64,000 nt of DNA from Listeria ivanovii subsp. ivanovii (GTDB lineage Bacteria > Bacillota > Bacilli > Lactobacillales > Listeriaceae). The stretch is taken from positions 1,286,001-1,350,000 of the forward strand of contig NZ_LT906478.1 in NCBI RefSeq assembly GCF_900187025.1, read 5' to 3'. The position numbers and the translations under genes are program-made. The notes beneath the pieces were generated by a model, which saw only the letters and a list, made by a program, of their open reading frames with translations, was not told where the DNA came from and searched no databases. Shown here piece after piece: positions 2,343 to 54,205 of the stretch (position 1 is its first letter; the number at the start of each line of letters is the position of its first letter).

Positions 2343-4191
2343 TAGTATTAGTTAGCAAAGTTACATATGCTTTAGAACCACTTTTGGTTAAATGGACGCC
2401 ATCTTTTCCAAAATATTGGGGGTTATTTACAGCTTGCGAATACCAATCAACTACAGTGACATTCGATCTATCAGCTGCATTTGCAATACTCTTGTTTACT
2501 TCCGCTTCCCATCCACGAGGTACTTTTGTATTAACAAGGTAGATTGAAGCTTTATCGAATTGATCTAAAAGAGTGTCTAATTGTGATTCAGTGAACGGTC
2601 CATTGGTACCAAGCTCAAGTATAACAGCACTTCCAGAAGCGTTATACTTTTTATAACCGGTCGCCGTGGTTATTGCATCTCTTAATTGCCGACCAACAAG
2701 ACCATCAATCGTAATATTTGGCACCGCTTCTTTTAAATAAGGCTCAATGTCAATCATTATTGAATCACCAAGTGCAAGTGTCTGGGTATAAGAAATAGTC
2801 CCGTTCGAAGCAATTGGTTTACTTTTTCCAGGGGGGGCTTTTTCAGGTGGTTTTGCTGTTTCTGTTTTCTTTTTAGTGTCTTTATCATCAGTCTTTTTTT
2901 TAGGTGGCGACTTCTCACTGTCAGATGAATCTGTTTTTACGGAAGTCGTTTGTTTCTCGGCATTTGTATTAACAGGTAATATATTAGTCATTGCAAGAGA
3001 GAACAACACTAATACTGTTGCGAGGCCAGTGATACCAAGCCATTTCCCTACAGGCTTATTTTTCCAAACGAAATAGTTTTTGTCTTTGAAACCCTTGAAA
3101 TAATTAATAAAACCGTTTTTTCGAATAGGCGTTTCAATAAATCGGAAAGATAGCTCGGCAATAATAAAAGTGGCAGCAACTTGTAAGATCGCTCGCCAAA
3201 TATTTGGCTGGCCAACTTCAAAAACAGGAGTCGTTAATGTGATAATTGGATAGTGCCATAAATAAATGCCGTAAGAACGAGTTCCAATCCATCTTAGTGG
3301 TTTAAAACTAAAAATTTTACTTAAGTAAGATGCTGGATGTGAGATAGTGGCAATCATAGTTACGCCGATAATGGCAACAAACAGTAATCCGCCACGATAT
3401 AAAAATGGTTGATATTCACTCACAAATGCTGTAAATACAAGGAAAAGTAAAATGCTGAGAGTTCCGGCTATATTTAAAACTGCTTTACTTTTTTTAGGAA
3501 CAACAGGGCTTAGCCGATTAAAGGGCCAAACAAAGGCAAGGGCGCAACCTGCTAGTAAATCGAATGCACGAGTATCTGTTCCATAATAAACACGACTAGG
3601 ATCAGTTCCTGGGTCATACAGAATAGTCATCCAAATAGCAGAAAGAAGTCCAAGCCCGATAACGATTTTTAAAAGTAATTTTGGATTTTTAACCCAACGT
3701 AAAAATACAAGTAAAAATGCTGGCCAAATTAAATAGAATTGCTCTTCAATTGCGAGTGACCATAAGTTTTTAAGTGGTGAAGGAAGCCCGAACGAATCGA
3801 AATAGGAAACGTTATGGAAGATAAACCACCAATTACTCACATAGAAGAAAGAGGCGATAGCGTCACCACGTAGATTTTTTAAAATTTCAGGATGGAATAA
3901 AACCGAATAGATGACAACAACTACAATCATTATATATACAGCTGGAATAAGCCGTCTAAAACGTCTCAGCCAAAATTGTTTTAATTGAAGAGTTTGTGTT
4001 TTTTCCCATTGTGTTAATAAAATATTGGTAATTAAGTACCCAGATAATACGAAAAATATGTCGACTCCAATGAATCCACCTTTTGCCCAACTGAAATTCA
4101 GATGATAGGAAATGACTGCAATAACAGCGAGCGCTCGAAGTCCGTCAATACTCGGAACATATTTTCTACTGTAGCGAGTAGTCCTTTTCAA
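2332..4191 (-). CDS. oatA: Peptidoglycan O-acetyltransferase
   Basis: The 619-residue protein has the OatA architecture: an N-terminal acyltransferase-3 domain of about ten membrane helices (residues 10-405), a Lys/Pro/Ser-rich linker (410-465) and an extracytoplasmic SGNH/GDSL esterase domain. The catalytic triad is visible as GDS (S477) and D597/H600 in the DGVHLT motif. OatA acetylates the C6 hydroxyl of N-acetylmuramic acid, which gives lysozyme resistance. Translation starts at TTG 4191 after AGGAG; the ATG just upstream is out of frame and stops at once. It corresponds to lmo1291 by position. Confidence 0.93.
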   Translation of the reverse strand: MKRTTRYSRKYVPSIDGLRALAVIAVISYHLNFSWAKGGFIGVDIFFVLSGYLITNILLTQWEKTQTLQLKQFWLRRFRRLIPAVYIMIVVVVIYSVLFHPEILKNLRGDAIASFFYVSNWWFIFHNVSYFDSFGLPSPLKNLWSLAIEEQFYLIWPAFLLVFLRWVKNPKLLLKIVIGLGLLSAIWMTILYDPGTDPSRVYYGTDTRAFDLLAGCALAFVWPFNRLSPVVPKKSKAVLNIAGTLSILLFLVFTAFVSEYQPFLYRGGLLFVAIIGVTMIATISHPASYLSKIFSFKPLRWIGTRSYGIYLWHYPIITLTTPVFEVGQPNIWRAILQVAATFIIAELSFRFIETPIRKNGFINYFKGFKDKNYFVWKNKPVGKWLGITGLATVLVLFSLAMTNILPVNTNAEKQTTSVKTDSSDSEKSPPKKKTDDKDTKKKTETAKPPEKAPPGKSKPIASNGTISYTQTLALGDSIMIDIEPYLKEAVPNITIDGLVGRQLRDAITTATGYKKYNASGSAVILELGTNGPFTESQLDTLLDQFDKASIYLVNTKVPRGWEAEVNKSIANAADRSNVTVVDWYSQAVNNPQYFGKDGVHLTKSGSKAYVTLLTNTMKK

Positions 4192-19025: not shown

Positions 19026-19040
19026 TATTTTACAATGTAA

Positions 19041-19084
19041 AACCCTTCGAAATTAGTAACTATTAATTTCGAAGGGTTTTTTAT
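19041..19084. terminator. Bidirectional terminator between yneF and the accessory operon
   Basis: A perfect 15-bp stem (AACCCTTCGAAATTA, 19041-19055, with 19064-19078) has T runs readable on both strands. It ends yneF on the plus strand and the six-gene minus-strand block. Confidence 0.93.
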
Positions 19085-19887
19085 TATAAATATCTAGTTA
19101 ATAACGGGAAATCTTTAAATTTTATATCATATCCTAAAATAGCTAGTTTTATTAATAAGGTTTGTGTAAATTGTTTAATATTTATTACTGGAATTTCCGG
19201 ATTAATTATAGGTATATTTTCCGAGAAGGAGATAAGCCATTTTTTTACTTCTGTATAAGTTAATTTTTGTAGCGAAAGTGCTGTAATTATAATTGTACTT
19301 AATCGTTCATCTTCTTCACCTGTTAACATGACTTTGTTTCCTTTATAAAAACTAGTTATGGCATTCATAATAATTTTCACTTCTTTATTTCTTATCGAGA
19401 TTTGATAGACTAGTTCATCCAAAGCATCTGCTGTGTGGGCAATACAATGTGCCCAACCTTTTCCTTTTACAAAAGAGCGGGTATCTTTTTCGATAGTAAG
19501 TAATTTTGTTAATGATGTGTATGTTGTTTGTACTTCTTTATCTGTTAAAAAATGATGCACTTTATTATTAGATAAGAGTAAGGCGATTATTAGAGTTAGG
19601 AATGAGCGCTGAAAAATAGCATCGCTTTCTTTTGATTTTATTTTATAGAAAAGATTTTTTTCGTTCAAAGCATAGTAATAGATAGTCTTTTTTTGTTCAT
19701 AGGATAAGTTATCTTTTGTAAGTAGCCATTCAGAAAAAATATTATATGCTACTTTATCTCTTAATTCACAATCAGTGGAAGATAGACAAAGTAAGAAAGT
19801 ATTTATTATTTTATCTGCTTCCTTAACGTTTGGTGGTAATTGATAGTTATTCAGTTTGAGTGAATTGTATAAATTTTTATCTAACAA
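19084..19887 (-). CDS. DUF2785 family protein
   Basis: A 267-residue helical protein. The block GKGWAHCIAHTADALDEL at residues 142-159 is the hallmark of the DUF2785 family, whose function is unknown. No membrane segment or signal peptide is visible. TTG 19887 follows AAAGGGAG by 7 nt. It is the last gene of the minus-strand block, starting 15 nt after the methyltransferase stop and ending just before the terminator. A role in the same process as the upstream genes is only suggested by the spacing. Confidence 0.7.
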   Translation of the reverse strand: MLDKNLYNSLKLNNYQLPPNVKEADKIINTFLLCLSSTDCELRDKVAYNIFSEWLLTKDNLSYEQKKTIYYYALNEKNLFYKIKSKESDAIFQRSFLTLIIALLLSNNKVHHFLTDKEVQTTYTSLTKLLTIEKDTRSFVKGKGWAHCIAHTADALDELVYQISIRNKEVKIIMNAITSFYKGNKVMLTGEEDERLSTIIITALSLQKLTYTEVKKWLISFSENIPIINPEIPVINIKQFTQTLLIKLAILGYDIKFKDFPLLTRYL

Positions 19888-19902
19888 GTTGTTACTCCCT
19901 TT

Positions 19903-20633
19903 TTATATTTTACTTGCTAAAATAATTAGCATCATTGGACGACGATATTCATCTTGCATCTCTGGTAAATCTTTTAATTCAGGTGCTGGTTGTGGTTCGA
20001 TAATACGTTTAATTTGAAAGCCATTTTTTATTAAGATTTGGATGTAACTGGTTAATGTACGGTGATACTTTTGAACTTCTTCACCTAGGAAGTTTGTTGT
20101 GCGTAATGATTCGTTAAAATAATCATCTACAGGCCAATATAAGTTATTACCTTGTTCGTCTGTGATCCAAGCTTGCGTGCCTTCAGCGGTAAACACAGGA
20201 TGCTCCACAGAAAAAATGAATTCACCATTTTGTTTTAAATTTGTGTGTACTTTTTGGCAAACGGTATTAAAATCAGCTACATAGTGAAGTGCAAGGGAAC
20301 TTAAAACAACCTCGTAACTTTCAGGTTCTAACTCAATATCTTCAATAGCTTTTTGTTGATAACTAATAACAGCTGAAGTTGTTTTTTGTTGTGCTTTTCT
20401 TAGCATTCGTTCAGATAAATCTACGCCTACCACTTTTTTTGCACCCTGTTCGGCAGCGTATATACAGTGCCAACCGAACCCACAACCTAAATCAAGAACT
20501 GTTTTTGGTTGAAGTCCGGAAGCAACTTTTTAAATTCATGCCATTCGCCAGCAGCTTTTAGTCCTTCTTTGGAACGGGGCATTTGGCTGTATTGTTCAAA
20601 GAAATGTTGATTATCATATTTATTTTCTTTCAT
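19903..20633 (-). pseudogene. Class I SAM-dependent methyltransferase, frameshifted
   Basis: The gene starts at ATG 20633 behind AGAAGGA and encodes KEGLKAAGEWHEFKKLLP, then stops after 48 codons. The methyltransferase continues in another frame as GLQPKTVLDLGCGFGW, the SAM-binding motif I, through VVGVDLS to the C-terminus. Restoring one G at the CCGGA around 20515-20519 (giving CCGGGA) would rejoin both parts into 243 residues, the usual length for this family. The substrate is unknown. Either a real inactivation or a sequencing error. Confidence 0.85.
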
Positions 20634-20653
20634 TTTAATCCTTCTCCCTAAAG

Positions 20654-21160
20654 TTAATCAGATACTTGACTAAATTCTTTATCTAAGAAGAGGTGAGCGA
20701 GTCCACTCACTTGTTTTAAGCGTAAGATTTCATTAGCATCCATACCGATATTTTTCATAATCCAGTTATCAGACATACCGCTATCCGCTAATTCGCCTAC
20801 AATATTCGACATTAACTCTACATTATGAAATCCGCGAGCTCGGTTATGCCGGATAGTAGAGGCAATCCGGTTGACGGCATTTTTTTCTAGAATAACAACT
20901 GGAACCATCTCGTTTTCTCTTTCTCGAATGCGTTTAGATGTTTGTATGATTGTAAACCGATGAAAGCCATCGATTATTTCATAGTTGCCAAAATCTTCTA
21001 AAGGATAACAGACGATTGGTTGTGTGAATCCATCTTCCCAAATGGATTTTTCTAGTAATTTTAATTCAGTTGCGGGAACCGTGTTCGGGTTGTAATTATT
21101 TGCTTGAAGTTTGGAGTAGTGGACAGGGATAACGTTATAAACAGGACTTTTGTAGTTCAT
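20654..21160 (-). CDS. ParB/Srx-fold domain protein (IbrB-like)
   Basis: A 168-residue protein with a ParB N-terminal-like domain: VHYSKLQANNYNPN opening, GFTQPIVCYP, DGFHR at residues 64-68 and RHNRARG at 104-110. These correspond to the nucleotide-binding/nuclease motifs of the ParB superfamily. The C-terminal third (ELMSNIVGELADSGMSDNWIM) looks like a helix-turn-helix. It is far too short for a chromosome-partition ParB. A ParB-like gene next to a PAPS-reductase-like gene recalls the IbrB-IbrA pair. It starts 9 nt after the stop of that gene, behind GAGGTGATA, so translation is coupled. Confidence 0.8.
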   Translation of the reverse strand: MNYKSPVYNVIPVHYSKLQANNYNPNTVPATELKLLEKSIWEDGFTQPIVCYPLEDFGNYEIIDGFHRFTIIQTSKRIRERENEMVPVVILEKNAVNRIASTIRHNRARGFHNVELMSNIVGELADSGMSDNWIMKNIGMDANEILRLKQVSGLAHLFLDKEFSQVSD

Positions 21161-21169
21161 TATATCACC

Positions 21170-22474
21170 TCATAGGATATTATTATATTTTTCTAGTGCT
21201 TTCTTTCGCTTTTCAAGTTCCAGTTTTGTTTGACCGAATCCCATATATTTGCAAGAATAATCATTTTTCAAAATGGCGATACACATCCGTTTATATGTAG
21301 GGACGCTTGAAAATTCTTTGATTTTTAGGTCATCTGGATATTCTTTGAAGCGAACAACTTCCATTTTATTTGTATACGTTCGGTTATTCTTTGGAGCGCC
21401 AAGGAAGTCTGCTTGTACATTTAAGCTTCTTAATTCTTCTACTATTTCAACTTTTAGAGCACCGCCCGATTCGGTCCAATAGTTGATACTTGTTTTAAAT
21501 TTTTTTAAGTAACGCTCTCTAGTGTAGCTTGGCAAAGTCGTAAGTAAGAATTCTAAATAGGACTTCCAAGTATGATTTTTCGGTAATTTAATTTCTTTCC
21601 AAGCCATCGCTGAAGTGCCTCCATAAATTGCAGTAAAATTGGCTCCATTCACTCTGCCAACAAGCTTGGACCAAAGATCTGGTTCAATCACGCGATATAA
21701 TTTAAGGCTTTCAGTGGCGGAATCGTTAAATGGACTAGCGACACGCATATCGTTAATAGTTAATCCAGCGTGGAAGAATAAATCGTAAATTTTGTTATAA
21801 TTCCAAGTGAATTTTGCATTAGCAACCCAAATATCATCCACTAACCAATCATGAATAGGGTAGCCGTTATAAATATTATTCGCAATTTCTGTTGTCCAAT
21901 TGTATGTTTGATACATCCGTTCTTTTTTATGGATGGCATTATAACGATTTAGTGATTCTTGTTGTCGAATTCCAATTAAGACAATGGTTTTTTTTGCGCC
22001 AGTTTTTTTATGTAACCAATGAATGATTTTTCGATTAAATTCATAATCCCAAATCCCGTGGAAATCGAAGTCGAAAGAAGCATTATCTTCATTAATGACA
22101 AAAGGGAAGTTAGGCATATCCCTTACCCAAATATCTTTATTGGATTTTTCCCAAGGTATCCAGTGATCGGTAAACATCGAAACAGCTGATTGTGCAGCGA
22201 TAGGAAGACAGCACCAAACTGGCTCAATTAGGTCTAAGTTATTGTTTAATGTTTTTGTTACAAATTCTGTTGTTGCAGTATATTGTCCTTCATAATCCAA
22301 ATGATAAACATATATTTTTTTGCGAATTTGGTGTTTTCGCATATAATCAATGACTAGTTGGAGCATGACGGCACTATCTTTTCCACCTGAAAAAGAGACG
22401 ATAATATTATCGAATTCAGAAAATATCACCTCTAATCTTTCTTGGGAAGCTTCAAGAACTGTTTTAGAATGCAT
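21170..22474 (-). CDS. PAPS-reductase-like PP-loop ATPase (IbrA/DUF3440 type)
   Basis: A 434-residue member of the adenine-nucleotide alpha-hydrolase superfamily. The PP-loop SGGKDS is at residues 29-34, followed by YVYHLDYEGQYTATTEF and GIRQQES. The long C-terminal extension with MRVASPFNDSA and YKRMCIAILKND resembles the DUF3440 extension of IbrA. Relatives include true PAPS reductases and sulfur-transfer proteins of DNA phosphorothioation (DndC type), but the usual PAPS-reductase C-terminal ECGLH motif is not seen, so assimilatory sulfate reduction is unlikely. It overlaps the helicase gene by 11 nt. Confidence 0.82.
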   Translation of the reverse strand: MHSKTVLEASQERLEVIFSEFDNIIVSFSGGKDSAVMLQLVIDYMRKHQIRKKIYVYHLDYEGQYTATTEFVTKTLNNNLDLIEPVWCCLPIAAQSAVSMFTDHWIPWEKSNKDIWVRDMPNFPFVINEDNASFDFDFHGIWDYEFNRKIIHWLHKKTGAKKTIVLIGIRQQESLNRYNAIHKKERMYQTYNWTTEIANNIYNGYPIHDWLVDDIWVANAKFTWNYNKIYDLFFHAGLTINDMRVASPFNDSATESLKLYRVIEPDLWSKLVGRVNGANFTAIYGGTSAMAWKEIKLPKNHTWKSYLEFLLTTLPSYTRERYLKKFKTSINYWTESGGALKVEIVEELRSLNVQADFLGAPKNNRTYTNKMEVVRFKEYPDDLKIKEFSSVPTYKRMCIAILKNDYSCKYMGFGQTKLELEKRKKALEKYNNIL

Positions 22475-23663
22475 TCATAATCACCTCAAAAGAGTTTTTT
22501 TGCGAAAGTTCTTTTTTTATTTCTTGTAATAAATTAGTTTTTTTAGATATATTGCTGTCAATAATATGATCAAGTCCGACATTGCCACTTAAGTCATGAT
22601 AATAGCAATCATTTACTTGTCCCGTTCGATAAATTCGCCGTTCGGATTGGTCACGCTGCGAGTAGTCAAAAGTTTTATCAAAATAAATAATTTGGTTATA
22701 GGCTTGTAGATTAAATCCGTAAGAAGATTTTGCAAAAGTGGTTACTTTTACATTTGGAAATACTTTTAGGAGAGCTTCTTCGGATCGTTTGTATTTGCAA
22801 AAAATAATGGTTGTATCTTCTTTGCCGCTGACTAAAGATTCCGTGATGGTGAATTTTTCTGAAGAAAGACAATAACAATGTTGCATGACTTGGGACATTT
22901 CCAGAAAGTTTATATTAATCGTATAAGCAGCTGCTTTTTGGAGATAATCCTCTTTTAGCTCATAATATTTCTTTAAAAGATCTTCATCAATTGAATAACC
23001 ATGACGAATATAATGCCAATCAATTTTTAAATCTACGGATGAAGAAAAGATAAAAGGAGTGATTAATTTATAAAGATACTCTAAATTATGGTATTTTTTA
23101 ATAATATCCATGGATTGCTTACTTGTTTCGGTTAATTGAGTAATGGTGACATATTCGCAAAATGTTTTTTTGAATTGTGAAAAAGTTAAATTTAATATTT
23201 TGGGTGATAAAAATTCTAATTGCGACCATAAGTCCAAAATATTCCGACTTAAAGGTGTTCCATTCATTATCAGTTTATAGTTGGCTAAACGAGAAAGTTT
23301 GATTGCTCTTTGTGTTCGAAGGGCGTGTTTGTTTTTTATTTTCAAACTTTCATCCATAATAATGTAACTATTGTTAGCTTTCTTAAGTTTATCTCGGCAA
23401 GTGAGGTAAAGTTGATCTGAATTAGAAAGAGACTCAATTCCAACGATATCTTGAGGGAATTGGTAGTCCCATTTACTAATTTCCTTTGCTAGGTTATCTT
23501 TCGTCTGGAAAGGAGTGAGCCAAAGAACATAATCCGGTCGCACATTTTTAATTAATTCGCAGGCAACTCGGGTTTTCCCAGCACCGGGCTTCATAAATAA
23601 GGCACCAACTTTATATTGTTGTAATTTTTCTAAAGCTAATTGTTGATTATCTAATAAGGTCAT
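22464..23663 (-). CDS. SNF2-type DEAD/DEAH helicase-like ATPase
   Basis: A compact 399-residue superfamily 2 protein: Walker A KPGAGKT at residues 25-31, Walker B/DExx as MDES at 103-106, motif III NGTPLSRN at 134-141, and motif VI QSERRIYRTGQ with arginine fingers at 339-349. The RTGQ ending is typical of the SNF2 group. It has no accessory nuclease or DNA-binding domain. Related minimal SNF2 proteins are common in phages and defence loci. It overlaps the preceding gene by 17 nt and the next by 11 nt, so the set is translationally coupled. Confidence 0.85.
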   Translation of the reverse strand: MTLLDNQQLALEKLQQYKVGALFMKPGAGKTRVACELIKNVRPDYVLWLTPFQTKDNLAKEISKWDYQFPQDIVGIESLSNSDQLYLTCRDKLKKANNSYIIMDESLKIKNKHALRTQRAIKLSRLANYKLIMNGTPLSRNILDLWSQLEFLSPKILNLTFSQFKKTFCEYVTITQLTETSKQSMDIIKKYHNLEYLYKLITPFIFSSSVDLKIDWHYIRHGYSIDEDLLKKYYELKEDYLQKAAAYTININFLEMSQVMQHCYCLSSEKFTITESLVSGKEDTTIIFCKYKRSEEALLKVFPNVKVTTFAKSSYGFNLQAYNQIIYFDKTFDYSQRDQSERRIYRTGQVNDCYYHDLSGNVGLDHIIDSNISKKTNLLQEIKKELSQKNSFEVIMNAF

Positions 23664-24021
23664 TGTTAATTATCACATCTTTTTCCAATTTTTTAGGTAT
23701 ATGCGTTCGGACTTTTATGATCGTATCATTGACTTTTTTGGTATGAAAAGACTGCGAGATTTCTTTATTTTCTTTGTCGAAGGCGAGCATCATCTCCTCT
23801 GCATCAATTACTTTTTTTTCTGTATGTTTCTTTAATTGAAATTTCCAGGTATTTGGAAAATAAAAATAACTGAATTTTGCTGAAATAGAAAATACCATTT
23901 TTTTAGGAAGTAAGAAAAAATAACCTTGATACTCGCTATTCATTGGCATTTCAATAATTGATTGATTATCCCATTGCTCAATCTGTTCACTATATGTATG
24001 AATTTTGTTCCATTTAACCAT
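23647..24021 (-). CDS. Hypothetical protein, first gene of the accessory operon
   Basis: A 124-residue protein not recognised. It is rich in aromatic residues (YFFLL, FSYFYFPNTWKFQL) and ends with a charged tail, IPKKLEKDVIINNDLIR. No signal peptide, membrane helix or catalytic motif is evident. ATG 24021 follows GGGAGAT by 9 nt. It overlaps the SNF2-like gene by 17 nt, so the two products are probably needed in fixed ratio; a partner or adaptor of the helicase is a guess. Confidence 0.65.
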   Translation of the reverse strand: MVKWNKIHTYSEQIEQWDNQSIIEMPMNSEYQGYFFLLPKKMVFSISAKFSYFYFPNTWKFQLKKHTEKKVIDAEEMMLAFDKENKEISQSFHTKKVNDTIIKVRTHIPKKLEKDVIINNDLIR

Positions 24022-24083
24022 TTAAAGCAAATCTCCCGTGTGTTTTGTCGTTTTAGTTCAAAATTTATCTATTTAATGGTTCC

Positions 24084-24092
24084 ATTTTATCA
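24084..24092 (-). promoter_or_regulatory. Extended -10 promoter of the accessory operon
   Basis: On the minus strand TG-A-TAAAAT lies about 65 nt before the first gene. No clear -35. The remainder of the 24022-24322 gap is AT-rich; pyrH must start from its right half, where only weak elements are visible. Confidence 0.5.
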
Positions 24093-47518: not shown

Positions 47519-47986
47519 TTAATTTTTATGTGCTAGGATTTTTGCGATAGTTTCGTAACTCATATCACTCTTTAAGTTATATTTACCATCACGAATATAT
47601 TTTTCATAATTATTGTCTTTTAAGTATTTATCAAACTCAGAAGAACTCTTAATTATCCCATTGGCTTGTAATTCATCGCCGGCTTTTGAGGAAGGGTCTC
47701 CTTTAGAAATTGTCAAAGTATAACTTTTTACTTTCTTAGCTTCTTCCGCTTTCTTTTTGGCCGCTTTTTTAGCTTCGTCATCAGCTGCTTTATCGACTTC
47801 TTGTTGAGCTAATAATTTTTCATATTTCGTTTTCCATGTGTCTGAGTTATCTTCAGAAACGTCTTTAGTTGGCGCGGCATTTGTTTCATCTGCTTTGGTT
47901 GGAGTCGAGAAAAACTGATCATAAACCAGTAAGACAACGGCAGATACTAAAAAACCTAATGCCAACATCCGTAAGTTTTTCTTCAC
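47519..47986 (-). CDS. Membrane-anchored protein with MltG/YceG-like domain
   Basis: A 155-residue protein: one membrane segment (about 7-25), a spacer, an Ala/Lys/Glu-rich coiled coil (about 52-86), and a C-terminal domain (about 88-153) whose pattern (SYTLTISKGDPSSKAGDELQ, IIKSSSEFDKYL, GKYNLKSDMSYETIAKIL) resembles the LysM-like N-terminal domain of MltG/YceG lytic transglycosylases. The catalytic domain of MltG is missing. By position it corresponds to YqzC of B. subtilis. A cell-wall role is inference. ATG 47986 follows AGGAGG-type sequence. Confidence 0.7.
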   Translation of the reverse strand: MKKNLRMLALGFLVSAVVLLVYDQFFSTPTKADETNAAPTKDVSEDNSDTWKTKYEKLLAQQEVDKAADDEAKKAAKKKAEEAKKVKSYTLTISKGDPSSKAGDELQANGIIKSSSEFDKYLKDNNYEKYIRDGKYNLKSDMSYETIAKILAHKN

Positions 47987-48014: not shown

Positions 48015-48371
48015 TTAATGTTTTAAATATTCTTCAATGATTTGTTCCACTTCTTCTTTAGGAAGGGAAGATTGCTCCGCGATTTCCGATGTTACAATTC
48101 CAGAAGTATAAAGTGTAATCACTTGTTTTTTCATTAATTCACGAACTTTTGGACTTTCAGGAACTTGCTCAATTTGCGTATCTGGGCTGTCCAGTTTCAT
48201 TGCTTTTTCTAATTCAGAGACACGTTTTTTTAACTCGAAATTTTCTTGCATCCACTGAGAAGCAACATCTTCCAGTTCTTTTTCTAATTGCTTATTATCA
48301 CCTTTTTGTAAGAATGAAATAACAAATAGCGCAATAGCAGCAATCAATAAGATAATTATGACTGTGGTCAT
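48015..48371 (-). CDS. Small membrane protein with coiled coil and helix-turn-helix-like tail
   Basis: A 118-residue protein: one N-terminal membrane segment (about 3-22), a coiled coil (about 30-60) and a C-terminal stretch TLYTSGIVTSEIAEQSSLPKEEVEQIIEEYL, which has the spacing of a helix-turn-helix. Not assigned to a family; positional counterpart is YqzD of B. subtilis. ATG 48371 (MTTVIII) is chosen as the first residue of the membrane segment; AGAGAGGTG lies 14 nt upstream, rather far. The 28-nt gap to the next gene suggests an operon with it. Confidence 0.65.
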   Translation of the reverse strand: MTTVIIILLIAAIALFVISFLQKGDNKQLEKELEDVASQWMQENFELKKRVSELEKAMKLDSPDTQIEQVPESPKVRELMKKQVITLYTSGIVTSEIAEQSSLPKEEVEQIIEEYLKH

Positions 48372-48489
48372 AGGTTTTATACACACCTCTCTTCCATAAA
48401 CTCTACTACTAGTTATAGCATAATTTACCTTAAAACACCATCCGAAATAAGGTTTTGTAAAGAAAATAAAAAGAAAATGCACAGAGACC

Positions 48490-53428: not shown

Positions 53429-53741
53429 CTATAATGATATTTTTCGAAAGCAGGTAGCCATTCTCTAAAAGAATATGGCATTTGAATTCATTAGATTTAT
53501 TATTGATAGACGCACATTTAATCTCAGAACGACCATATGTTTCTGTAAAATTTGATTGGACAGATGCTTTTTTCATTTTTATAATGGTTAAATTAAGTTC
53601 CGCTGAAGCCAAGTAATAGTTTTGAATCATCTTTTCATATTCTACCTGCCTTTTAAAAATAGAAACGCTACCAGTAACAATTAAGATAGTTAGTAAAGCG
53701 ATAAAGATAGTAAAAGGAAGGGTAAATGCATTTGGTTTCAT
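53409..53741 (-). CDS. comGG: Competence pseudopilin-like protein ComGG
   Basis: A 110-residue protein with an N-terminal membrane segment (about 6-26) preceded by NAFTLPF, a degenerate prepilin-like start. It is the last gene of the comG operon; in B. subtilis ComGG is a minor pseudopilin that helps assemble the DNA-uptake pseudopilus. Sequence conservation in this family is low, so the name rests mainly on position. ATG 53741 overlaps the comGF stop by 4 nt. Confidence 0.8.
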   Translation of the reverse strand: MKPNAFTLPFTIFIALLTILIVTGSVSIFKRQVEYEKMIQNYYLASAELNLTIIKMKKASVQSNFTETYGRSEIKCASINNKSNEFKCHILLENGYLLSKNIIIAKKNEP

Positions 53742-54205
53742 GGCTGTTCCTTTGTTTTGGGTAATGGAAAGTGTGAGGTATAGAATGTCGAATCCGAGAA
53801 AATAACTTCCAAAATTAATTGATTATTATTTTTTATAAACTGCCATTCTTTTATTTGGGTTAATAAAGGCTCATGTCCTTTGCCATCAACTTGTCGTCTT
53901 AGTAAGTTACTAAATTTTGTATAAGTGATTTTTTTATTTTCTACTTGAAAAGATAGCTGCTCTTTTTCTACTTTAACATTGCTTGCTTTTCCCCACTCTA
54001 ATCGCATCTGTATTAAAAAAAGTTGCCATTCAGTCGTTTGATCTAAATTACTAAGTTCGATAGTTTTGTGATAACATTGAAAAAATAGTGGTATAAGCGA
54101 GCTAATGCTTAAAATAATTGTAATAGAGAGGATAGTCTCAAGAAGTGTAAATGCTGGAGAACCATCTTTATAATATACATTTTTCTGTCCGTTTATTTTT
54201 TGCAC
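53738..54205 (-). CDS. comGF: Competence minor pseudopilin ComGF
   Basis: A 155-residue type IV pilin-like protein. The prepilin motif is PAFTLLETIL, with cleavage expected between A and F, followed by a membrane helix (to about residue 43) and a beta-rich C-terminal domain with LEWGKASNV. Translation starts at GTG 54205; AAGGAGG lies 11 nt upstream, a slightly long spacing. It overlaps comGE and comGG, so the set is translationally coupled. Confidence 0.88.
   Translation of the reverse strand: MQKINGQKNVYYKDGSPAFTLLETILSITIILSISSLIPLFFQCYHKTIELSNLDQTTEWQLFLIQMRLEWGKASNVKVEKEQLSFQVENKKITYTKFSNLLRRQVDGKGHEPLLTQIKEWQFIKNNNQLILEVIFSDSTFYTSHFPLPKTKEQP

Follow-up and report, generated by a model that had tools for sequence, protein, structure and literature searches.

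We analysed a 64,000-nucleotide (nt) stretch of the Listeria ivanovii subsp. ivanovii genome (contig NZ_LT906478.1, positions 1,286,001 to 1,350,000; this whole stretch is called the window), in which a block of minus-strand genes, flanked by tkt–yneF and pyrH–frr, encodes the protein pair IbrA and IbrB. In minus-strand order the block contains a small open reading frame (ORF), a SNF2-type ATPase, IbrA, IbrB, a class I methyltransferase and a DUF2785 protein (Table 1), and the first four of these form a cassette that Listeria has in common with phages. The genes are tightly packed, with overlaps of 17 nt between the small ORF and SNF2 and of 11 nt between SNF2 and IbrA, followed by gaps of 9 nt between IbrA and IbrB, 19 nt from IbrB to the methyltransferase ATG (20634) and 15 nt between the methyltransferase and DUF2785. 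A previous description of this DNA, made from its letters alone (the sequence-only reading), had proposed a six-gene operon; its strand, coordinates, overlaps and gaps of 9 and 15 nt were reproduced, but a gap that it put at 20 nt measures 19, and only five of the six genes are intact, the methyltransferase gene being frameshifted. Pfam profiles bore out the protein families it had named (by matches to DUF3440/PF01507, ParB_N, SNF2 and DUF2785), while the identity of IbrA and IbrB, the phage cassette and the break in the methyltransferase had escaped it.

Table 1. Features of the block, in coordinates of the window.
Feature	Position	Strand	Evidence
Putative extended -10 element TGATAAAAT	24084..24092	-	kept in 15/15 Listeria genomes, one with TGTTAAAAT
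Likely ribosome-binding stretch GGGAG	24033..24037	-	GGAG invariant in 15/15 genomes
Small ORF, cassette component, 124 amino acids (aa)	23647..24021	-	phrog_27058 9e-10
SNF2-type ATPase, 399 aa	22464..23663	-	PF00176 2e-13; phrog_62 5e-64
IbrA-type PP-loop/DUF3440 protein, 434 aa, lmo1310 counterpart	21170..22474	-	PF11922, PF01507, phrog_2302 5e-100
IbrB-type ParB-like protein, 168 aa, lmo1309 counterpart	20654..21160	-	PF02195 3e-7; phrog_2159 1e-69
Class I methyltransferase gene, frameshifted here	19903..20634	-	Methyltransf_11 5e-13 on C-terminal piece
DUF2785 protein, 267 aa, optional tail gene	19084..19887	-	PF10978 1e-46
Terminator stem-loop, 19-pair stem	19039..19080	.	stem in 15/15 genomes

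The assignment to IbrAB follows from a protein that joins a DUF3440 domain (PF11922, 283.2 bits against a cut-off of 25, 1e-84) to a PP-loop domain (PF01507, 45.3 against 22.5, 1e-11), with a ParB-like protein directly adjoining. To place the pair in context we compared 160 nearest relatives, namely the best 80 of at least 193 confirmed in bacterial contigs and the best 80 of at least 287 in viral contigs, a non-random sample of near relatives that contains some near-duplicates (L053, L132), with related rows counted individually; the motif and cysteine alignments took in 159 of the 160 for IbrA, 157 for IbrB and 40 of the 41 loci with SNF2. The sequence-only reading had held that the three enzymes work as one machine and that homologues scattered singly would speak against it. 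For IbrA and IbrB this association stands, as both are present in 157 of the 160 loci, but SNF2 accompanies them in only 41.

The PP-loop of IbrA (FSGGKDS) is intact in all 15 Listeria genomes that carry the block, and the PP-loop motif is found in 152 of the 159 aligned relatives. Two cysteines, C89 (157/159) and C408 (150/159), are also conserved, C89 being missing from IbrA of E. coli phage PhiR5_2 and Flavobacterium phage FCL-2, and a description of IbrA as devoid of conserved cysteines was accordingly rejected. These counts concern conservation in near relatives, and because of this conservation IbrA may conceivably perform a sulfur step. An AlphaFold2 model of IbrA (predicted local distance difference test, pLDDT, 89; 68 sequences) gave 60 matches in the PDB at E 0.001. 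CysH, CysD and FAD synthase headed the list, aligned over about 235 columns, and TilS and NcsA ranked below them (template modelling score about 0.3 by query length). The best PDB profile matches were FAD synthase, at 3e-6 but confined to 34 residues, and CysD, at 3e-5. Since most enzymes of the CysH, CysD and FAD-synthase kind make or use adenylated substrates, we favour adenylation as the predicted chemistry of IbrA.

In IbrB, the motifs DGFHR and RHNRARG are present in 15/15 Listeria genomes, and the relatives keep DG(F/Y/H/W)HR in 156 of 157 and R(H/N)NRARG in 157 of 157; judged by eye, a likeness to a SerK-type motif and to helix-turn-helix ParB regions is suspected. Against their counterparts in E. 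coli phage PhiR5_2, IbrA and IbrB show 33% and 44% identity, respectively, and a near-identity search of E. coli genomes gave no match. ParB folds have been described as binding CTP, ATP or GTP and as often tied to mobile elements (PNAS 2025, PMC12704722), in a paper whose main text does not contain the terms PAPS, IbrB or phosphosulfate.

The SNF2 motifs GxGKT, DES, NGT and RxxRxGQ are intact in all 15 genomes, and the protein resembles ZorD and DpdE among PADLOC families. For the small ORF, an AlphaFold2 model (pLDDT 82.5) built on a wider alignment that includes Flavobacterium-type small ORFs, whose kinship is unproven, is beta-rich and confident over residues 1–80. An iterated profile seeded by the 15 Listeria small ORFs reached forms in Streptococcus, Lactobacillus and Fusobacterium phages and matched in 5 of the 41 SNF2 loci (L057, L067 on the opposite strand, L141, L145 and L160) and in none of the other 119. 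A second profile, seeded by five small ORFs picked by position and therefore partly circular, matched in 18 of the 41, in 16 of them just upstream, with a single marginal match among the 119.

Next, we examined the block across Listeria. It occupies one site, between yneF and pyrH, with the same gene order in 15 of 25 genomes, whose PyrH proteins are 99–100% identical, as opposed to 86–93% in the remaining 10. A published study assigns lmo1309/1310 as IbrB/IbrA and lmo1311 as SNF2, describes them as unique to Listeria sensu stricto, and counts lmo1309, 1310 and 1311 among 151 products present in all sensu stricto species and absent or divergent in the other clade (PMC5736727). Because these genes are listed as specific to that clade, we take the 15 block-bearing genomes to be Listeria sensu stricto. 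IbrA and IbrB are each present in 18 of the 25 genomes and a SNF2 match in 19, comprising 15 at 84–100% identity, two distant ones and two weak, generic ones. The two genomes with a distant SNF2 (G004, G010) carry it with IbrA–IbrB elsewhere in the genome, and a distant IbrA–IbrB pair occurs in G009 and, as a second copy, in the draft genome G005, in which IbrA is broken by a stop. Beyond Listeria these genes are rare: SNF2 at E 1e-20 was found in 18 of 295 genomes of the order, 17 of them Listeria, and of 398 genomes sampled from the phylum 4 carry DUF3440, the window's genome included.

The four core genes are under purifying selection, with medians of the ratio of nonsynonymous to synonymous change (dN/dS) of 0.04–0.14: 0.044 for IbrB, 0.047 for IbrA, 0.061 for SNF2 and 0.142 for the small ORF, all taken over pairs, with tkt (0.036) and pyrH (0.004) as references. 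These ratios are rough, since synonymous distances are near saturation in many pairs, and they were computed, like the distances, on the best tblastn stretch of each gene, so that the stop-broken IbrA of G005 enters in part. Among IbrA, SNF2, IbrB and the small ORF, distances show mutual correlations of 0.90–0.96, and their correlations with tkt and pyrH are 0.70–0.86; the two trees compared have several groups in common, with G024 and some neighbours placed differently. This pattern suggests broadly vertical inheritance in the 15 genomes.

The signals around the block are also maintained. The extended -10 element, read from 24092 to 24084 and lying about 63 bases upstream of the first ATG, is conserved in the pyrH-side alignment, as is the GGAG upstream of the small-ORF ATG. 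The promoter-like element of the sequence-only reading is in this way supported by conservation, but not by a generic promoter scan, which taken alone stays at shuffle level (31 found; shuffle mean 25.9, standard deviation 5.5). The strong terminator placed after the last gene was upheld: the scan assigns its stem to the plus strand, the minus reading being also T-rich at its end, and the stretch, which precedes the convergent yneF, outfolds all 200 shuffles in each of the 15 genomes (z from -4.0 to -9.3), the stem being kept although its sequence varies between species. The block would thus form one transcription unit, probably read as a single transcript.

The two tail genes are less uniform. 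In the window the methyltransferase frame that opens at 20634 comprises 48 codons before a stop, and the remaining 176 aa (19903-20433) are encoded in another frame. A single open frame of 243-250 aa exists in 12 of the 15 genomes, the window's genome being counted in the total; besides the frameshift seen here, the defects are a stop in G003 and an interruption by Ns in G015. DUF2785 is present in 6 of the 15 (dN/dS median 0.163 over these 6 genomes, with 0.069 for the methyltransferase), and the record of L. monocytogenes NCTC7974 has all six genes annotated at full length. Judging by gene order, the DUF2785 counterpart should be lmo1307, a gene classed as accessory in L. monocytogenes (PMC3692452). 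Because the methyltransferase is open in 12/15 genomes and DUF2785 is found in 6/15, we regard four genes as the core and the tail as less constant.

Outside bacterial chromosomes, IbrA matched 210 phage records, IbrB 221, SNF2, as a broader family, 561, and the small ORF 14, two of the latter being Listeria contigs that are apparently host-derived; IbrA-type matches were found in 597 plasmid records, and most IbrA and IbrB record matches lie below 60% identity. Their products carry labels such as phosphoadenosine phosphosulfate (PAPS) reductase, partition protein, IbrA/IbrB, DUF3440 or hypothetical. Phage IbrA and IbrB have been reported (PMC4541368, PMC6008420), and phage genes labelled as PAPS reductase have been filed as host metabolism (PMC11318856, PMC10434257). 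Some of the records invite caution as to their origin. Three contigs of 2.5-3.2 kb filed as "Listeria phage" (OR848903.1, our L022, OR848947.1 and OR847553.1) carry parts of the operon, their IbrA, SNF2 or IbrB being 85-88% identical, and look host-derived, not phage; NZ_LR134403.1 (L216), filed as an L. monocytogenes plasmid, is 407 kb long, contains tkt, pyrH and frr and looks chromosomal, and NZ_CP030101.1, filed likewise, is 2.9 Mb long. Another short contig, L049, has only 1.9 kb and says little about its pyrH neighbourhood.

The arrangement small ORF–SNF2–IbrA–IbrB occurs in this same order in Streptococcus phages Pika, D4276 and CHPC1148 and in Lactobacillus phages AQ113 and CR28, with identities to Listeria of 31-46% for SNF2, 40-52% for IbrA and 60-63% for IbrB (the last without CR28). 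CHPC1148 has one extra small gene between the small ORF and SNF2, and in D4276 (L211) a gene annotated as the anti-CRISPR AcrIIA5 (2984-3406) lies directly before the small ORF. Unlike in Listeria, no methyltransferase or DUF2785 gene is annotated beside these phage cassettes, which stand in accessory positions; phage sites of accessory appearance include those between lysis and regulatory genes, from terminase to portal, and beside antirepressors or an integrase. In Fusobacterium phage phiFN37 the cassette is in two halves, with IbrA–IbrB ahead of small ORF–SNF2. Flavobacterium phages have all three enzymes, ordered in FCL-2 as SNF2–IbrB–IbrA after a small ORF of unproven kinship, and the IbrA–IbrB pair also occurs in Mycobacterium phage Gaia and in E. 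coli phage PhiR5_2, where no SNF2 of this kind is annotated next to it.

Additionally, three other families adjoin the pair. A 143-aa family does so in 52 of the 160 loci (e.g. L198:9054-9482), in none of which SNF2 is present; its one PDB profile match was at 0.55, and the one member scanned had no Pfam match. An ectoine-synthase-like cupin (Pfam 1e-32 for the one member scanned) adjoins the pair in 24 loci (e.g. L210:4507-4893), in 21 of them between IbrA and IbrB, and is annotated in phage Gaia (L019) as a single protein with ParB. A 135-aa family is present in 28 loci and directly precedes IbrA in 26 of them; its assignment to GNAT was discarded, as just one of the 15 members matched GNAT (at 0.008), none matched NCBIfam, and the weak PDB match is a polyprotein. 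The picture that these neighbours suggest is of a fixed IbrAB pair with exchangeable accessory proteins. We also dropped a possible link to 7-deazaguanine through phiFN37, in which a second ParB and an annotated queuine tRNA-ribosyltransferase lie beyond the cassette: the second ParB is only 25% identical over 84 residues, the ribosyltransferase has no Pfam match at 0.01, and the combination recurs among the 160 loci only in L141, at 99–100% identity and probably from the same phage.

Proximity to defence islands, raised by the sequence-only reading, was not borne out. Besides the chromosomal yneF–pyrH site of the 15 Listeria genomes, we scanned the neighbours in 16 SNF2 loci from bacterial contigs (122 proteins, leaving aside small-ORF matches, proteins below 100 aa and those with unknown residues). 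PADLOC matched 19 families, each on one protein, of which 14 are methyltransferase profiles and the remainder BrxL, PD-Lambda-5_B, mad2, dCTPase and DolB. Among the PHROGs families listed (25 of 109), terminase large subunit was matched by 2 proteins, and integrase, head, tail, DNA methyltransferases and a glucosyltransferase family were single matches. These surroundings give the impression of prophage mixed with ordinary chromosomal sequence and do not resemble a defence island.

Our best reading of these results, held tentatively and at somewhat less than an even chance, is that the block is a cassette of phage origin, now domesticated, that modifies nucleic acid in an ATP-dependent manner and would also be able to change transcription. 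A phage cassette of small protein, SNF2, IbrA and IbrB would have entered the ancestor of one Listeria branch and been kept as one transcription unit. IbrB, with its ParB-like nucleotide fold and helix-turn-helix-like stretch, and the SNF2 translocase would engage double-stranded DNA; IbrA, at the expense of ATP, would activate by adenylation a group carried by a base or by a small donor, whereby a modification is installed, and the small protein may couple SNF2 to IbrA–IbrB. Phages could use such a mark to escape restriction or to redirect transcription, and Listeria would keep the cassette for the same kind of marking; a change in transcription would be one of the consequences, and this would account for the discovery of E. 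coli IbrAB as a prophage-gene activator. With more reserve, we suggest that IbrAB might be the core of an undescribed, widespread phage system for nucleic-acid modification with exchangeable accessory sets (SNF2 plus small protein; the 143-aa protein, often with the cupin; the 135-aa protein), of which the Listeria sensu stricto copy would be a domesticated member that marks its own DNA and thereby gene expression.

Modification is favoured by the ordered phage cassettes, by the nearly constant pairing of IbrB with IbrA (157/160), by the co-evolving residues reported for lmo1309 and lmo1310 (PMC7020466), and by the single Listeria site with low dN/dS of genes that are otherwise rare. The conserved PP-loop and ParB motifs, the fold matches with CysD, FAD synthase and CysH, the recurrent cupin and the AcrIIA5 neighbour in D4276 point the same way, and Dpd, with a ParB-like ATPase that drives base insertion, may serve as a precedent by analogy. 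The likelihood of this reading depends mainly on the three enzymes and not on the small ORF. A number of observations weigh against it. The experiment known for the IbrAB family is transcriptional (eib activation; PMC4541368, PMC6008420), and the modified base remains predicted only. With SNF2 in 41/160 loci, most IbrAB pairs in the sample do without it, and no more than 21 of 40 SNF2 relatives showed a Walker A pattern, which either speaks against a strict need for ATPase activity or is an artefact of the pattern's crudeness. For the small ORF, kinship is demonstrable in only 5/41 SNF2 loci, the fold search against the PDB gave no match at E 0.001, and the Flavobacterium-type form was never reached by the Listeria-seeded profile (hhalign probability 5). 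Nothing in the PDB fold search clearly explains the DUF3440 half of IbrA, and the neighbour scans give little for DNA modification, with single DNA methyltransferase and glucosyltransferase matches among the PHROGs families listed.

The modification reading ranks ahead of the next explanation, a pure transcription co-activator, which we consider rather unlikely although a serious contender: without any modification of DNA, IbrB would bind DNA through its helix-turn-helix-like part, IbrA would be its ATP-dependent partner and SNF2 would remodel nucleoprotein or RNA polymerase in the manner of RapA. The family owes its name to the activation of prophage eib genes in E. coli (PMC6008420, PMC4541368), lmo1309/1310 and lmo1311 are filed under transcription (PMC5736727), and in the five phages inspected the pair has cro, regulator or antirepressor genes in its vicinity. 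A conserved PP-loop would, however, be unusual in a pure regulator, and the enzyme-like cupin neighbour would be left unexplained. Moreover, the enzymes are also carried by phages regarded as virulent, as we take the Moineauvirus phages to be; for FCL-2, the absence of an integrase and of lysogeny has been reported.

A role in anti-phage defence or superinfection exclusion, with the SNF2 and ParB parts sensing invading DNA and IbrA as effector, appears improbable. It would agree with the likeness of SNF2 to ZorD and DpdE in PADLOC and with the accessory placement of the genes in phages, in one case following a gene annotated as AcrIIA5; nevertheless, the similarity of SNF2 is generic (52.8 bits for ZorD against 1500), no nuclease or other known effector appears among the block's domain matches, PADLOC matches around the relatives are sparse, and inheritance in the 15 Listeria genomes is broadly vertical. 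We give still less credit to nucleotide or cofactor metabolism, in which IbrA would make or modify a nucleotide in the manner of FAD synthase, IbrB would be a kinase or nucleoside triphosphate sensor and SNF2 a passenger: the best PDB profile matches of IbrA and the capacity of ParB folds to bind ATP, GTP or CTP (PMC12704722) agree with it, but the SNF2 partner points to DNA and the block has no metabolic gene. Finally, lmo1309 and lmo1310 have been proposed from profile matches to be the antitoxin and the toxin of one pair, with co-evolving residues between them (PMC7020466). This is highly improbable in our view, as the toxin label came by guilt by association, the two genes show about the same degree of constraint and the PP-loop of IbrA is intact.

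The identities of lmo1309/1310 and lmo1311 and their specificity to sensu stricto species are already published (PMC5736727); what is added here is the small ORF–SNF2–IbrA–IbrB cassette as a unit common to Listeria and phages. A literature search limited to open-licence papers found no description of the four-gene cassette, which is no proof that none exists. As far as literature searches show, the chemistry of IbrA and IbrB has no published account, despite hundreds of phage and plasmid records. The anatomy suggests that the block chemically modifies or regulates DNA, a function that is predicted only, and the clean chromosomal copy in 15 Listeria genomes, behind a promoter-like element, makes the chemistry of a phage cassette testable in a tractable bacterium. 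No Rfam family was found between 16500 and 26500, and elsewhere in the window three minus-strand ORFs with GTG starts, each of exactly 155 aa (47519-47986, 48015-48482 and 53738-54205), are possible duplicates of one another.

Compared with known systems, the block has in common with Dnd, Ssp and type 4 BREX a PP-loop PAPS-reductase-like protein (46.7 bits between IbrA and DndC in PADLOC). The sequence-only reading was right that it is not a classical Dnd system: IbrA scored 37.7 bits with the DndC equivalog TIGR03183 against a cut-off of 290.4, the genome has no match to DndB (TIGR03233) at 0.001, and its best score for DndD (TIGR03185) is 22.8 bits against 245.85. DndE and a dedicated cysteine desulfurase were absent from the domain matches of the block, to which that search was confined. 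The argument of the sequence-only reading against sulfate assimilation also holds, as the assimilatory PAPS reductase CysH was rejected (NF002537, 17.1 bits against 154) and the IbrA translation contains no ECGLH, the CysH motif. Zorya type I was discarded too, with SNF2 at 52.8 bits against 1500 for ZorD (NF041790), which reflects generic SNF2 similarity only. Dpd likewise combines a ParB-like ATPase (DpdB) and a SNF2 helicase (DpdE) with a base enzyme, and in a comparison with type 4 BREX, DpdB is reported to drive base insertion into DNA (PMC12839542). Unlike in Dpd, the catalytic part of the block would be the PP-loop enzyme; identity with Dpd was rejected, because a scan of the block found no tRNA-guanine transglycosylase family (DpdA) and IbrB matches no PADLOC family. 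A close parallel is IbrAB of E. coli phages and strains, in which the same DUF3440 PP-loop protein is followed by a ParB-like protein and which activates prophage eib genes (Sandt and colleagues, as recounted in PMC4541368 and PMC6008420). YbdN/YbdM of E. coli K-12, where ybdNM regulation has been studied (PMC9068703), have been likened to IbrA/IbrB in published descriptions. The Listeria pair differs from the E. coli type in that it belongs to an operon with the small ORF and SNF2, maintained at a single chromosomal site.

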